A program made the translations under genes and the position numbers. The notes beneath the pieces are model-generated. The model worked only from the letters and a program-made list of their open reading frames with translations, was not told the DNA's origin and did not search any database. A stretch of 64,000 nucleotides of DNA, from the NCBI GenBank assembly GCA_945917985.1, contig CAMEIH010000006.1, forward strand, positions 1-64,000. The letters are read 5' to 3'. This DNA comes from an uncultured Clostridium sp. Its GTDB lineage: Bacteria; Bacillota; Clostridia; Lachnospirales; Lachnospiraceae. Positions 18,935 to 60,438 of the stretch are shown here, piece by piece; positions within the stretch are counted from its first letter, which is position 1, and each line of letters starts with the position of its first letter.

Positions 18935-19072
18935 CTTTTCTTATTAAAAAGAAATCCTCCCGAAAGACGGAAGGATAGAATCTACTTTAATAAACTCATT
19001 TCCTCGGTAGGCGATACGCTTACGCCGCGGAGTTTAACCTCCAGGCACCTACTGTCTTCGGCACGGTTATCA
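18935..19072 (-). ncRNA. Ribosomal protein L10 leader (cis-regulatory RNA)
   Basis: Minus strand GTGCCGAAGACAGTAGGTGCCTGGAGGTTAAACTCCGCGG...CGCCTACCGAGG directly upstream of rplJ; typical L10-leader sequence. Confidence 0.85.
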
Positions 19073-19120
19073 TAACCTCAATTACCATATCATATAGAAA
19101 TTATACTGTCAATGACTTTT

Positions 19121-53186: not shown

Positions 53187-54158
53187 ATGAATAACTCCAG
53201 AATAAACATTGCCACTGCCTTAAACAGCCGCTATATGCGATATACTTATGTCATGCTGACATCTTTGTTTCGAAATCAGCCTGATGCGGATATTCACGTG
53301 TATCTTTTGCACAGTGACCTGACTGAATCTGATCAGACATATTTGTTATCTCTTGCCAAAGAGTATCACCAAAATATGTATTTCCTTTGTGTTGATAAAT
53401 CCTTATTTTCTCATAAACTTCCTACTACATCTTCATGGTCATTAGAAACCTATTACCGCTTGCTTCTTCTTGATTTGCTACCTTCCGATGTAGATAGATT
53501 AATGTATCTCGATGTAGATATGATTATCAATAAACCAATATCAGAACTATATTTTACAGATTTTGAAAACGCCTACTTTTGTGCATGTCGAGACATGACG
53601 ATTTCATTCCCCTTTCCCGACATAAGAAATGAAATATTCAAAGAGCATATTTCCAATGGATTCACATATTTTAATGCGGGCATGATGATTTGGAACATCA
53701 AAGAATTACGTTCAAAATATTCATTTACAGATTATATGTATTTGGCACAAAAATTAAACTTTCAAATGTTTGCTCCAGATCAGGATCTTTTAAATTTCAT
53801 GCACTGGAATCAGGTTAAATTTGTGGACGAATATCAATATAACTTGTTTTCTAAAATGGCATACAATCACGGAATTCGATATAAAGATGTAGTGGCAGAA
53901 ACTACAATTATCCATTTTGCCGGTATGAAGCCATGGGAGGGAGAGTATGTCCATTATGACATTGAACAGCTTTGGTGGGACTATGCAAAACTGACTCCTT
54001 TTTATCATGAGCTTATGGAGGAATTCATGCATAATGTAATTAACAATCCCATAGTTCCCGATACATTATCCTCTTTAGCAGAAGAAAAGAAAACATTATC
54101 CCAGGCTCTCGCACAAAGCAATACCATGTGCCAAAAATTACTTCAGCTACTAAATTAG
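53187..54158 (+). CDS. GT8-family glycosyltransferase
   Basis: INIATALNSRYMRYTYVMLTSLFRNQPDADIHVYLLHSDLT...DRLMYLDVDMIINKPISELY...YFNAGMMIWNIKELR. Confidence 0.92.
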   Translation: MNNSRINIATALNSRYMRYTYVMLTSLFRNQPDADIHVYLLHSDLTESDQTYLLSLAKEYHQNMYFLCVDKSLFSHKLPTTSSWSLETYYRLLLLDLLPSDVDRLMYLDVDMIINKPISELYFTDFENAYFCACRDMTISFPFPDIRNEIFKEHISNGFTYFNAGMMIWNIKELRSKYSFTDYMYLAQKLNFQMFAPDQDLLNFMHWNQVKFVDEYQYNLFSKMAYNHGIRYKDVVAETTIIHFAGMKPWEGEYVHYDIEQLWWDYAKLTPFYHELMEEFMHNVINNPIVPDTLSSLAEEKKTLSQALAQSNTMCQKLLQLLN

Positions 54159-55342
54159 TCCTGTAAGAACTCCAGCATTTCCCCTACCCTTTGTTCCATT
54201 CGGAATCGTTCCTCAATCTTTCTCTGCCCATTTCCTGCGATTTCTAATCGCTCTGTTTCATGTGTCAGATAGTACTCCGCTTTTTCTAAAGCATCATCAA
54301 GACTTGTGTACATTACCAATTCCTTGCCATCCACAAAATTTTCGGCTATTTCCCGTTGATAATTAGTCAGGCAAAAGCCTCCACACGCCAATATATCAAG
54401 TACTCTCTGCGGAATTCCTGACTCAATTGATTTTGAAGTAATATTTAGATTAATCTTACTGCCCGAAAAGATAAGAGGCATCTCTGTTCCGTAAGATGCC
54501 GTTCCCATATGGCAAATATTATCCTGTTTCTTCAGAACATCCGGCAACTTGGATGCAGTATACAGATTCACTTTAAAATGTTCACTCAGCTTTTGTAAAA
54601 CTCCAATTCTTTCCCGTGCTGAAACCTCCATTGCAATCGCATCTGCTGCTAAGGTTTTTTCATCCTGAATATACATTTCACCTAAGCCAAGTTCACATGT
54701 CTTCAAGACTTCACAAACGATTTCATCCGGTATAGTATCTCGAATAAAATTATATCCATATACCTGAAGCTGTGCCTGTATAATTCCCTCAAGGAATCCT
54801 TCTGTATAATCGGAAAATTCCGCATTTCTTATTCTGTTTTTCTCATCATTATATAAATTTCCTACAAAAGAAACATCATACGTATATTTATTCTTTTCGT
54901 TCGAGCAATCAGATATTGTTTTACAAAAATATTCAACATCCGTACCCAGGAGATGGTGATAGACATGTCTCCCGCCTAATTTCTTTATTTGATCACAATA
55001 TAACTTGTCAAAGCAGAAAATATAGTTAAAATTGCTTATTATTGATTTAGATTGCAAAGTGTATTGCGGGCAATCATAAATCCACGAAATATACGGAAGT
55101 TGATTAATTTCACAAATCATGGAAATAAGTGGAAAATAATCATAACTAAAAACTGCCTTGATCGGATATCGTTTCAATAGGCATATTAATTCCTGTGCAA
55201 ACACAGCATCTGCATGATAATCCTTCATTGTTTTATCAAATATCATAAATGGTATCTGTAGTTTTTTTAATGCACATAATACCCCTGCTTCACAAACTGA
55301 TCCCCAGCAGTATACAAGTATTGATTCTGCTTTTTCGTTCAT
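54155..55342 (-). CDS. CgeB-like glycosyltransferase
   Basis: AVFSYDYFPLISMICEINQLPYISWIYDCPQYTLQS...SKINLNITSKSIESGIPQRVLDILACGGFCLTNYQREIAENFVDGKELVMY. Confidence 0.8.
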   Translation of the reverse strand: MNEKAESILVYCWGSVCEAGVLCALKKLQIPFMIFDKTMKDYHADAVFAQELICLLKRYPIKAVFSYDYFPLISMICEINQLPYISWIYDCPQYTLQSKSIISNFNYIFCFDKLYCDQIKKLGGRHVYHHLLGTDVEYFCKTISDCSNEKNKYTYDVSFVGNLYNDEKNRIRNAEFSDYTEGFLEGIIQAQLQVYGYNFIRDTIPDEIVCEVLKTCELGLGEMYIQDEKTLAADAIAMEVSARERIGVLQKLSEHFKVNLYTASKLPDVLKKQDNICHMGTASYGTEMPLIFSGSKINLNITSKSIESGIPQRVLDILACGGFCLTNYQREIAENFVDGKELVMYTSLDDALEKAEYYLTHETERLEIAGNGQRKIEERFRMEQRVGEMLEFLQD

Positions 55343-55460
55343 AATATTTCCCTCAACCTGTGTTTTATATCATCGTAGCACATTTATTCCAAAATAGTAA
55401 TAGTATTCGAGTAATCCATATGATAAAATGAATACAGTAAAATAATCTCAGGAGTTACTA

Positions 55461-56525
55461 ATGGTCCCTATTTCTGTATGCATTATTGCAAAAAATGAGG
55501 AAAGAAATATAGAACGCTGTCTTTCTTCACTTGCGCCTTACGGATTTGAAATTATTCTGGTAGATACCGGTTCTACTGACAAAACGAAAGAATTGGCATC
55601 AAAATATACAAATCATATTTATGATTTCAAATGGGTGAATGATTTCAGCGCTGCCAGAAACTATTCATTAAATCAGGCATCTAATGACTGGATTTTCATG
55701 ATAGACTGCGATGAAACTCTGCAGTCTGTCGATCTGGAGGAATTAGATTATTTCAGAAAGCATTTATCTCATGCTGTGGGCTCCGTCAATCGTGAGAACT
55801 TAACCGGCACTCCCGAGAATCCCGGTAGGACAGTCGATCGAACAGAACGCTTCTTTTCGCGAAAGAGATTTCATTATACCGGAAGAATTCACGAGCAGCT
55901 TACCCCCAAATATGGGAAAGATATGGAAGCATTTTTACTGAATGCAACTCTCTTTCATGATGGATATCTGATGGATGAATCCACCCGCATGCAGAAGGCA
56001 AAACGTAATCTGGATCTGCTTCATTTGCAGCTTTCAGAAGAGCCCCAAAATCCTTATCTTTTTTATCAACTTGGGAAAGGATACGAAATGATTGGTGATA
56101 TGGACACCGCCTGCAAATGGTTTGGAGATGGACTTACTTTTGACCTGGATCCTACATTAGCTTATGTTCAGGCAATGGTCATTTCCTATGGTCACGCCCT
56201 GTTGCAAACCAGGCAGGCAGAAAAAGCATTGCAATTTGTCAATATTTATGATGACTTTTCATCCAGTGCTGATTTCGTCTACCTAATGGGATTGATTTAT
56301 AAAGAAAACAAATATTATGCTCAGGCCATTCATGAATTTAAGAAAGCTCTTGGTTTCGAATTTGCTAATCAGGAAGGAGTAAATAGCTATCTGGCATATT
56401 ATCAATTAGGAGAGATTCTAGCTTCAATGGGCGAAACCGAATCAGCATTAAAATTTTTTAAAATGTGCGGCAAATATTCCCAAGCCAAACAATTACTTGC
56501 ATCTCTTTTACAATCAACCCCTTAA
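55461..56525 (+). CDS. GT2 glycosyltransferase with TPR-like C-terminus
   Basis: VPISVCIIAKNEERNIERCLSSL...IILVDTGSTDKTKELA...NDFSAARNYSLNQASNDWIFMIDCDETLQ. Confidence 0.88.
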   Translation: MVPISVCIIAKNEERNIERCLSSLAPYGFEIILVDTGSTDKTKELASKYTNHIYDFKWVNDFSAARNYSLNQASNDWIFMIDCDETLQSVDLEELDYFRKHLSHAVGSVNRENLTGTPENPGRTVDRTERFFSRKRFHYTGRIHEQLTPKYGKDMEAFLLNATLFHDGYLMDESTRMQKAKRNLDLLHLQLSEEPQNPYLFYQLGKGYEMIGDMDTACKWFGDGLTFDLDPTLAYVQAMVISYGHALLQTRQAEKALQFVNIYDDFSSSADFVYLMGLIYKENKYYAQAIHEFKKALGFEFANQEGVNSYLAYYQLGEILASMGETESALKFFKMCGKYSQAKQLLASLLQSTP

Positions 56526-56547
56526 CTTTCTTACGAGGAGAACACTT

Positions 56548-57612
56548 ATGCTACCAATTTCAGTCTGTATTATTTGTAAAAATGAAGAACAAAATTTAGA
56601 GCGTTTTTTTACCGCTCTTAGAAAATATGATTGGGAACTGATCTTTGTAGATACCGGTTCTACCGATTGCAGTCGTGACATCGCCTTAAAGTATACTGAC
56701 AAAGTATTTGATTTTCCATGGAGCAACGATTTTTCTGCTGCCAGGAACTATTCTATCTCTCAGGCTTCAAATGATATGATTCTTATTTTAGACTGCGATG
56801 AATTCCTGCTTGACGTTGACATACAGCAAGTTCTATTACTTATGGAGCAGCATCCGGAGGAAATCGGATGTATCCAACTTCAAAATCATACAAATATCAA
56901 TGGTACAGACACCATTGTTTATCATTCCTTAAATCGGTTTTTTAATCGAAAAATTTATCATTATACAGGTGCTGTTCATGAACAGACCACACGTATCGAC
57001 CGTAATCCCGTTCCACCTTTTTACCAGCTTCCGCTCACAGTAGACCATCAGGGATATAATTTATCTCTCAAAGATAAAGTGCGAAAATCAAAGCGTGATC
57101 GTGATATTTTACTGGAAGAGCTAAAAAAGAATCCGCAAAATGCTTATCTCCTCTTTCAAATAGGAAAAACCTATGACTTCCAAAATGATTCTAATAAAGC
57201 CTTAACTTATTATGTCAAGGCTATCAGTAGTCCTAACTTTAATCCCGAAGAAGAATATACTATTCATCTTCTCCTTGCATATGGAAATTGCCTGCTAGAT
57301 ACTGGTCATTATGAAGCTGCCCTTTCGATGATTGACGTAGAATCTATCCTCTCGACTTATGCAGATTACTATTGTTTATTGGGGCGAATTTATTATTCCA
57401 ACAAGCAACCGCTTCAAGCCATGATGGCATTCATCAAAGCACTTGCCTGTGAAAAAGAAATTGTTGAGGGCTCAAGATACAATATTCCTCATTACAATAT
57501 TGGTTTTCTAAATGAACAACTTGGTGATATCAACAATGCAATTATGCAATACCGGCTTTGCGAAAATTTCCCCATGGCTTCCAAACGATTAGAAGAACTA
57601 AACATTAATTAA
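56548..57612 (+). CDS. GT2 glycosyltransferase with TPR-like C-terminus (the listed ORF is over-extended)
   Basis: LPISVCIICKNEEQNLERFFTAL...LIFVDTGSTDCSRDIA...NDFSAARNYSISQASNDMILILDCDEF; GAGGAGAAC ribosome-binding site. Confidence 0.88.
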   Translation: MLPISVCIICKNEEQNLERFFTALRKYDWELIFVDTGSTDCSRDIALKYTDKVFDFPWSNDFSAARNYSISQASNDMILILDCDEFLLDVDIQQVLLLMEQHPEEIGCIQLQNHTNINGTDTIVYHSLNRFFNRKIYHYTGAVHEQTTRIDRNPVPPFYQLPLTVDHQGYNLSLKDKVRKSKRDRDILLEELKKNPQNAYLLFQIGKTYDFQNDSNKALTYYVKAISSPNFNPEEEYTIHLLLAYGNCLLDTGHYEAALSMIDVESILSTYADYYCLLGRIYYSNKQPLQAMMAFIKALACEKEIVEGSRYNIPHYNIGFLNEQLGDINNAIMQYRLCENFPMASKRLEELNIN

Positions 57613-57655
57613 TATCATATTCATAACTAAAAATAACTTTAATAATAATACAAAA

Positions 57656-57685
57656 ATAAGGGGCTGGCATTCGCCAACCCCTTAT
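57656..57685 (-). terminator. Intrinsic terminator downstream of flagellin
   Basis: ATAAGGGGTTGGCGAATGCCAGCCCCTTAT followed by TTTTG. Confidence 0.85.
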
Positions 57686-57720
57686 GGTAGTTTTTAGCTT
57701 GCAATATACTCCAGAATAGA

Positions 57721-58668
57721 TTAACCAAGCAAGGATAATACACCCTGATTGCTCTGGTTAGCCTGTGCCAACATTGCCTGACCTGCCTGGGTAAGGATAT
57801 TATTGTTGGAGTACTTAACCATTTCAGTAGCCATATCTGTATCACGGATAGCAGATTCAGCACTTGTGGTGTTCTCAACTACGTTATCCAGGTTATTGAT
57901 GGTATGCTCAAGTCTGTTCTGTACGGCACCAAGAGCAGAACGCTGTGTAGATACAGTCTGTAATGCACTCTTTACAAAAGCGTTCAGGCTTGCGAAATCC
58001 TGTGCAGTAGCATATGTATGTGTTGTACCATCAACTGTCTTGCCTTTTGTAAAGATAGAAATAAGATTCTTAGCTGTAGCAGTCGACATTGCAGTTTGTG
58101 TAGTAGCCGGCTTACCAGTATTATCCAAAGCATAATAACTTGTCTTTGTATTCTGTGCGGCAGTTGCCAAACCTGTCATGCTCATGCTCTTAATAGAAAT
58201 GTCAATATGCTGTCCGGATTCAGCACCAACCTGAAGTCCTTTACCAGTAAAGCTTCCATCCAACAAGTTCTGCTCATTAAATGTAGTTGTAGACTGTACA
58301 CGGTCAATTTCATTCATCAACTGTGCAATTTCGTCTTTGATGTAACCGCGGTCTACAGATGTTAATGTTCCATTCTCGCCCTTAACTGCCAGTTCGTTCA
58401 TTCTCTGGAGCATATCATGAACTTCATTCAGAGCGCCTTCAGCTGTCTGTACACAAGAAATACCATCTTCTGCGTTAGCGGATGCCTGTGTAAGACCTCT
58501 GATCTGTCTTCTCATCTTTTCGGAAATAGATAAGCCTGCTGCATCATCTGCTGCACGGTTGATCTTATAACCGGATGATAACTTCTCTGTTGACTTAGCC
58601 TGTGTTGATGTTGTAAGTCCTAACATTCTGTTAGAGTTCATTGCTGTAAGATTGTGTTGTACTACCAT
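57721..58668 (-). CDS. fliC: Flagellin
   Basis: MVVQHNLTAMNSNRMLGLTTSTQAKSTEKLSSGYKINRAADDAAGLSISEKMRRQIRGL; C-terminal ILTQAGQAMLAQANQSNQGVLSLLG. Confidence 0.98.
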   Translation of the reverse strand: MVVQHNLTAMNSNRMLGLTTSTQAKSTEKLSSGYKINRAADDAAGLSISEKMRRQIRGLTQASANAEDGISCVQTAEGALNEVHDMLQRMNELAVKGENGTLTSVDRGYIKDEIAQLMNEIDRVQSTTTFNEQNLLDGSFTGKGLQVGAESGQHIDISIKSMSMTGLATAAQNTKTSYYALDNTGKPATTQTAMSTATAKNLISIFTKGKTVDGTTHTYATAQDFASLNAFVKSALQTVSTQRSALGAVQNRLEHTINNLDNVVENTTSAESAIRDTDMATEMVKYSNNNILTQAGQAMLAQANQSNQGVLSLLG

Positions 58669-58814
58669 AATTTTTCCTCCTTGAAATTAACGTCGCTTCC
58701 CTGCGTACGTTTGATACTTTTTTGTGTAGTCAGTTTTTCGAATTCGTACGCATCCGAAACCCTGCTACCTGTTTTCTTTTTTGTAAGCAATTTGTTTTGC
58801 TTTACTTGTTAAGT

Positions 58815-58841
58815 ATATCGGATTTTTCTTCAAATACTTTA
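58815..58841 (-). promoter_or_regulatory. Sigma-28-type flagellin promoter P1 (proximal)
   Basis: Minus strand TAAA-N15-TCCGATAT. Confidence 0.8.
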
Positions 58842-58897
58842 GAGCTTTTCAAAACTTTTTTGCTTACCAGAACATTTTGTTCTTTTACTTGTTATAT

Positions 58898-58924
58898 ATA
58901 TCGGTGAAAAATAAAATTACTTTA
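58898..58924 (-). promoter_or_regulatory. Sigma-28-type flagellin promoter P2 (distal)
   Basis: Minus strand TAAA-N15-ACCGATAT. Confidence 0.8.
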
Positions 58925-59002
58925 GTTTTTATAGGAAATTTTTTTTCTATATGCTATCATATTTCCATAACGTTGCGTCAAAAGACCTTTATAAGACCTT
59001 CT

Positions 59003-59168
59003 GTTGTCATCACGCACAGTCAAATCAGTTTCCGGCGATTTGGGGCACTGCGAAGATAAGACGCATGAAAACGTGGAAGCCTTTGCTGAACACGTTTTCA
59101 GTCTCTGCGGCTTATCGGAGCGCATAGTGCACATGAGCCGAAATTGATTTGCTTGTGCGTGATGACAG
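59003..59168. repeat. Long imperfect inverted repeat (about 75-nt arms) between flagellin and a CgeB-like gene
   Basis: Outer GTCATCACGCAC...GTGCGTGATGAC; middle CAAATCA.TTTC.GGC and GATAAG.CGCA; inner GAAAACGTG...CACGTTTTC. Confidence 0.8.
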
Positions 59169-59229
59169 ACGAAACCCTTATGAAATCTTTTAACCCGTCC
59201 ACCTATGAAACCACCGGGAGGCATACCTT

Positions 59230-60438
59230 ATGAACATCCTGTTTTATCGCTACGGCAGCATCTGTGAACCCGATTTAATCGATGCTTTCAAATCCTTACA
59301 GATCACTGTCATCGAAGAAGATACCGAAATCTATCAGAAATCCATTGAACCGGAAGTCCGCATCCGCCGTCTAGCAGAACAGCTTTTGACGCATCAGATT
59401 TCCTTTGTATTCAGCATCAACTTTTTCCCCTACATTTCGGAAATCTGTCAGCGGCTTAATGTAATTTACGCCTGCTTAAGTGTGGACTGCCCTGTGCTGG
59501 AGCTCTTTTCCCGCTCCATCCGCAACACCTGCAACCGGATTTTTCTGTTTGATTACCACCAGTATGAACAATTCAGAGGGGAAAATCCCGACTGCATTTT
59601 TTATCTCCCCCTTGGAACCAACACTGACCGCTGGGACGAATGTCTCTCTTCCCTGCCCGCAGAAGGTAATGACCAATGGAAATACGACCTTTCTTTTATC
59701 GGCTCACTCTATAACGAAAAGTCGCCTTATGACCATTTACCCCTCTCAGACTTTGACCGAGGCTTTGCAGATGGTCTTATGGAAGCCCAGTTGAAGCTCC
59801 CGGGTCTTTCCCTGATTGAGGAATCTCTCTCTAAAGACCTGGTCACTGCGCTGAAAGGAGCCTGTGAATCATCCGTAGGCAATTCCGCACAGTTCCATAC
59901 TCTGCCGGATGCCTTCACGGATACTGATCCTTACGTTGCCGCCAACTATTTTTGCGGCATGCGGATTTCTGAACTCGAGCGAATCCGCACGTTAAATGCA
60001 CTGGCAGAGAATTTCCGGGTAGATCTTTTTACCAGAAGCAATACCGATGATCTGAAAAACGTCCACTATCACGGAGGGGTATCCACCCATGAAGAGATGC
60101 CTCGTATTTTTTACCGGAGCAAAATCAACCTGAATATCACCATGCGCCCGATTCAGACCGGTCTCTCTCAGCGTGTATGGGATGTTCTCGGCTGCCGGGG
60201 CTTCCTGTTATGTAATTATCAGTCAGAAATACCGGAATATTTTCAGATCGGAAGTGATCTTGAGTGCTACGAGAATCTGACCGATTTAAAGGAAAAGGTT
60301 GCCTTTTATCTGGCCCACGATGATATTCGAAAGGAAATAGCTGCTCATGGCTACCGGACAGTGAAAGAAAAACATACCTACCTTCACAGAGTTATCTCCA
60401 TATTGAATCTTATCTATCCGCCGGAGCATACTGCTTAA
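59230..60438 (+). CDS. CgeB-like glycosyltransferase
   Basis: ISFVFSINFFPYISEICQRLNVIYACLSVDCPVLELFS...SKINLNITMRPIQTGLSQRVWDVLGCRGFLLCNYQSEIPEYFQIGSDLECYEN. Confidence 0.8.
   Translation: MNILFYRYGSICEPDLIDAFKSLQITVIEEDTEIYQKSIEPEVRIRRLAEQLLTHQISFVFSINFFPYISEICQRLNVIYACLSVDCPVLELFSRSIRNTCNRIFLFDYHQYEQFRGENPDCIFYLPLGTNTDRWDECLSSLPAEGNDQWKYDLSFIGSLYNEKSPYDHLPLSDFDRGFADGLMEAQLKLPGLSLIEESLSKDLVTALKGACESSVGNSAQFHTLPDAFTDTDPYVAANYFCGMRISELERIRTLNALAENFRVDLFTRSNTDDLKNVHYHGGVSTHEEMPRIFYRSKINLNITMRPIQTGLSQRVWDVLGCRGFLLCNYQSEIPEYFQIGSDLECYENLTDLKEKVAFYLAHDDIRKEIAAHGYRTVKEKHTYLHRVISILNLIYPPEHTA

Follow-up and report, generated by a model that had tools for sequence, protein, structure and literature searches.

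A long palindrome beside a flagellin gene is probably an old copy of a MITE-like foldback element of Lachnospiraceae

ERIC and similar repeats are imperfect intergenic palindromes of 100-250 bp. By this description the element of Lachnospiraceae reported here is alike, an imperfect palindrome between genes, but it differs in its clear 7-bp duplications and terminal repeats and in arms that vary between lineages yet remain complementary. Like REP/BIME sequences with RAYT (PMC3733652, and general knowledge), it forms imperfect hairpins that sometimes occur as inverted pairs; REPs measure 20-40 bp, whereas this element is far longer, has 7-bp duplications and shows no association with Y1_Tnp. The bcr1-bcr3 repeats of the Bacillus cereus group have been described as similar to MITEs (PMC3446304), and the Lachnospiraceae element resembles them in being short, non-coding, dispersed between genes, restricted to a lineage and equipped with features of mobile elements. 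It belongs to another taxon, however, and, judged by description, differs from bcr1-bcr3 in lacking an Rfam match and in having a conserved, covarying core hairpin, inverted dimers, short forms without the core and the 7-bp duplication. Imperfect inverted repeats are subject to template switching, which homogenises the arms and mimics compensatory mutation (PMC8794818); template-switch mutation at quasi-palindromes is also treated in PMC8604942. Such quasi-palindromes, like the present element, have arms that are complementary without G.U intermediates, but they represent a mutational process and not an element family.

The window analysed here is a 64,000-nt stretch of DNA from an uncultured Clostridium sp. 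of the Lachnospiraceae. A sequence-only reading had placed a long imperfect palindrome between a flagellin gene and a CgeB-like gene, and the palindrome proved real: positions 58980-59190 folded as a single long imperfect hairpin of -94.9 kcal/mol compared with -52.4 ± 4.1 kcal/mol in dinucleotide shuffles (z = -10.45; 0 of 200 shuffles equally stable). The apical stem-loop and outer arms lie where they had been drawn. In the apical stem, GAAAACGTG (59067-59075) pairs with CACGTTTTC (59091-59099) and encloses the near-invariant loop GAAGCCTTTGCTGAA (59076-59090). In the inner stem (59056-59115), A59061 and G59110 form a conserved A.G mismatch, and the 3' side carries a bulge. A perfect outer arm is present as described, although it measures 14 nt and not 12: TGTCATCACGCACA (59005-59018) is the perfect complement of TGTGCGTGATGACA (59154-59167). 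An 11-nt direct repeat, imperfect, was also found (AAGACCTTTAT, 58982-58992; AAGACCTTCTG, 58993-59003), but it belongs to the left arm of the element rather than abutting it, and it aligns with the arms of other copies. Because of this position we rejected the repeat as a target-site duplication. No credible gene was found within the window copy, in agreement with the earlier view that it holds no ORF of interest; a 100-aa ORF at 58922-59224 on the minus strand reads through the hairpin and is unsupported.

Other features of the window were also recorded. From 54155 to 60438, the flagellin lies, as judged by eye, between two CgeB-like and two glycosyltransferase-like proteins, possibly a flagellin glycosylation cluster. 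A 21-nt direct repeat occurs 5' of the flagellin gene (58801-58821 and 58884-58904, 83 nt apart), and the minus strand of each repeat carries CCGATAT after TAAA, resembling by eye tandem sigma-28 flagellar promoters. A ribosomal protein L10 leader (Rfam RF00557, 63.9 bits) was located at 18940-19079 on the minus strand.

The search for further copies in the genome and its relatives that had been proposed yielded many. Besides the window copy, 21 were found in its own genome at E < 1e-6, giving 22 dispersed copies, and a covariance model (R1) built from these retrieved the identical 22; its match in the window covers the conserved core hairpin at 59014-59167 on the plus strand (152 bits, E 9e-41 in the own genome). 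The search of relatives covered 61 genomes, of which 15 had matches, every one in the same genus, with 26 in the sister species G003 (some partial) and 24 and 11 in G010 and G035. Carriers made up 11 of 200 sampled Lachnospiraceae genera, in a patchy distribution, and the element was found in 0 of 24 genomes of other families of the order. In the GTDB collection the exact core pattern occurred in at least 112 stretches, mostly from records named Lachnospiraceae and including Roseburia, Blautia and Coprococcus comes; the MAGs labelled Alistipes, Acetivibrio and Bdellovibrio that gave a few matches are presumed to be mislabelled or mixed bins. There were no matches in viral contigs, phages or plasmids, and a covariance-model search of Rfam returned no family that matches the element. 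Near-identical copies were frequently located at contig ends.

Full copies of 232-238 bp in related Lachnospiraceae carry the terminal inverted repeat GATTCGGGTGTCAAAAGCCCTG, and GATTCGGGTGTCAAAAG ends occur as inverted pairs that bound copies. Young copies in a Roseburia MAG (G061) terminate in GATTCGGGTGTCAAAAGCC and GGCTTTTGACACCCGAATC; 64 element-end matches were listed in this MAG and 119 in G067. Among 50 end-bounded copies from all fetched loci, 41 were 232-238 bp long. In 22 of the 50, the flanks held a 7-bp duplication whose halves differed at no more than one base, compared with a mean of 1.8 and a maximum of 6 in 200 shuffles, and widths of 6 and 8 bp gave a much weaker signal. The target site is AT-rich and similar to TTTCCTATAAG. 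One longer version of 338 bp (L182:1446-1783) carries about 100 nt of additional hairpin sequence nested in one arm and is flanked by the exact 7-bp duplication CTATGAA.

Most of this evidence on terminal repeats was obtained in other genera, and the ends of the window copy are degenerate. By alignment to a copy elsewhere in its own genome (L020) and to the 232-238 bp copies bounded by terminal repeats, we infer that the whole window copy is an old and decayed one of 236 bp, at about 58968-59203 on the plus strand (the strand on which the core motif GAAGCCTTTGCTGAA is read), a size consistent with those copies. Its left terminal repeat remnant, TAACGTTGCGTCAAAAG (58968-58984), shares 10 of 17 bases with the L020 end GATGTCAGGGTCAAAAG, and its right remnant, CTTTTAACCCGTCCACC (59187-59203), shares 12 of 17 with the inverted L020 end. 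Target-site duplications, which had been suggested as a check, were found at other copies, where they measure 7 bp, but none was recognisable at the window copy.

Empty sites were examined at both loci. The L020 insertion has an empty counterpart in G003, which reads ACC-ATAACGC-TGTAC compared with ACC-ATAGCAT-element-ATGGTTC-TGTAC in the own genome. The lengths match a 7-bp duplication exactly, and the two flanking repeats have now diverged from each other. At the window site the element is present in the own genome and in G003, and the flagellin and CgeB-like genes are adjacent without it in three congeners (G007, G026 and G027). A MITE-like element, one of the possibilities raised from the sequence, is borne out by the dispersed copies, terminal inverted repeats, 7-bp duplications and empty sites, alongside coreless forms with duplications of their own. 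These coreless elements measure 48 to 126 bp and have ends in common with the full element. Two 72-bp forms in G074 have an identical internal arrangement and different exact duplications (ATATTTA and TTAAATT), so the short forms appear to be mobile as such, and the core would seem dispensable in cis for movement.

The differences between the two arms had been read as compensatory. A single copy does not allow this to be judged, but comparison between copies confirmed it. In an alignment of the 22 own copies built without structure, 97.5% of cells pair, and 26 of 38 pairs showed changes on both sides compared with 7.6 ± 1.8 in shuffles. This strong result of the proposed covariation check was accompanied by a covariation score of 0.279 versus 0.125 ± 0.008 shuffled. 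Between nearest-neighbour copies, double Watson-Crick changes numbered 50 versus 2.6 expected, and single changes 40 versus 130 expected. The loop is conserved among the copies compared; in the GTDB set this conservation is partly built in because the collecting pattern contains GAAGCCTTTGCTGAA.

Orthologous insertions in G000 and G003 showed a different balance, with paired-site differences comprising 60 single mismatches, 18 G.U pairs and 9 double changes. Single mismatches dominate between orthologs, and the fold was therefore kept mainly in active or source lineages, before insertion, probably at the DNA level. Core divergence between orthologs was 6.0% versus 14.5% at fourfold sites of neighbouring genes, a locus-dependent value calculated without the near-identical L009 pair, suggesting that inserted cores are to some extent used or corrected. 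The tip was lost in some G003 orthologs through deletion between short direct repeats. Together, the slow core and the tip deletions indicate some constraint or correction of a hairpin that is not indispensable. At one orthologous site (L019:3022-3174 and L213:12990-13144) the cores were 18% different and the flanks about 6%, and one copy may have been replaced.

Strong covariation, a near-invariant loop, conserved mismatches and a slowly changing core would also fit a regulatory RNA under selection for its fold as a transcript, be it a 5' leader of the CgeB-like gene, as had been proposed, or a dispersed small RNA. The window copy lies about 30-60 nt 5' of the start codon and in the same direction. 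A selected RNA strand is expected to tolerate G.U better than A.C. Family-wide, however, G.T and A.C mismatches were about equal (55 and 47 of 2767 cells), with no strand-specific G.U signature; antisense covariance matches, which are the same copies on the other strand, were excluded from these wobble counts. Among the own copies alone the counts were G.T 15 and A.C 4, and there may therefore be a weak strand effect there. The other copies have unrelated neighbours and occur in both orientations, the downstream gene being on the same strand in 12 cases and on the other in 17. The three congeners with the same gene pair and no element, the restriction to 11 of 200 genera, the deleted tips and the absence of an Rfam match also argue against an RNA, and we consider this explanation highly improbable. 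A T-box leader-like match noted 5' of one element copy (L014:2629-2870) scored 72.3 bits and so missed the gathering score of 93.

All 30 copies examined were intergenic, often 10-40 nt beyond an opposite-strand stop codon, and many end-bounded copies have ends that read AAAAGCCC...GGGCTTTT, with a terminator-like look. Copies might accordingly be retained to terminate transcription in both directions, or as insulators separating genes, with mobility as their origin only, and the slow core would agree with such a use. Insertion preference accounts equally well for the positions, though; no terminator was called in the window region, the window copy lies directly 5' of a start codon, and some orthologs have lost the tip. 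Retention as terminators or insulators is highly improbable.

Inverted core pairs, with cores 68-93 nt apart, were found at L110:3673-4070, L111:822-1212, L136:5330-5708 and L168:3845-4225, and further pairs at G268 C1:357803-358189 and G275 C62:35845-36225. L110 and L136 are related dimers within one genome. The usual GATTCGGG ends were absent from the dimers in the four fetched loci (L110, L111, L136 and L168). It is conceivable, if unlikely, that the core hairpin is itself a mobile or protein-recognised DNA module, carried in two vehicles (terminal-repeat elements and inverted dimers), kept Watson-Crick complementary on both strands and served by a dedicated undescribed enzyme. The inverted dimers, the imperfect hairpin with its conserved mismatches and loops, and the Watson-Crick-only pairing would also suit a single-stranded DNA hairpin, REP/BIME-like or attC-like, as the substrate of a Y1-type or tyrosine recombinase. 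The distribution of Y1_Tnp does not follow that of the element: 7 of 17 carriers have it, as do 6 of 12 congeners that gave no match, and several of the richest carriers lack it (draft assemblies). A Y1 transposase was rejected as a partner on this ground. A 7-bp target-site duplication together with terminal inverted repeats indicates a DDE-type reaction, and a hairpin of the REP or attC kind has very little likelihood.

A second hairpin repeat of 36-38 nt, arranged as CCAAACGCCG-stem-CGTCTTATTGG with a covarying stem, was observed in six copies in G000: C73:680 (L015), C17:51164 (L024), C26:28539 (L026), C12:18800 (L025), C7:11620 (L253) and C96:5095 (L258). Four of the six are inserted at the same point within copies of the big hairpin, and the repeat is missing from three G003 orthologs. 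A stand-alone copy adjoins an apparent RNase P RNA end.

We also looked for an autonomous partner. None was found in the fetched loci, among the end matches listed or beside PF01609 genes, in drafts that are incomplete. Terminal-repeat pairs 0.5-4.5 kb apart in the fetched loci gave L175 as the sole candidate, which consists of two small copies flanking an unrelated gene. L259 (1.8 kb) was likewise rejected, having neither a transposase-like ORF nor a duplication. PF01609 genes in seven carrier genomes had no such element ends.

Taken as a whole, the interpretation offered by the sequence-only reading is partly supported. A lack of other copies and of covariation was among its refuting conditions, and instead copies proved numerous and covariation strong. 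The palindrome is probably an old copy of a foldback DNA transposon of Lachnospiraceae that is MITE-like, non-autonomous and moved in trans. The family is an undescribed one of this known kind; no earlier description of such a Lachnospiraceae element was found in the open-access literature. The full element is about 235 bp long and non-coding. Its ends form a terminal inverted repeat of 17-22 bp, its arms vary in sequence yet pair with each other, and its imperfect core hairpin is conserved. A putative transposase acting in trans, presumably of the DDE type, would cut at the terminal repeats and duplicate 7 bp of the AT-rich, TTTCCTATAAG-like target. The arms may be kept complementary because template switching corrects the imperfect palindrome as it is replicated, with selection for a DNA hairpin acting in addition on source elements. 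Inverted loops, a footprint that template switching could leave, were seen only in antisense readings of the same copies. A DNA-level cause of arm complementarity is plausible and is favoured here, and selection on one RNA strand fits less well.

With the covariance model and the element ends, an intergenic repeat family of many gut Lachnospiraceae can now be annotated. The family also calls for caution, since a mobile palindrome can generate covariation of a strength that might be taken to prove a functional RNA. Orthologous copies of differing age would allow the template-switch account of compensatory change to be tested.
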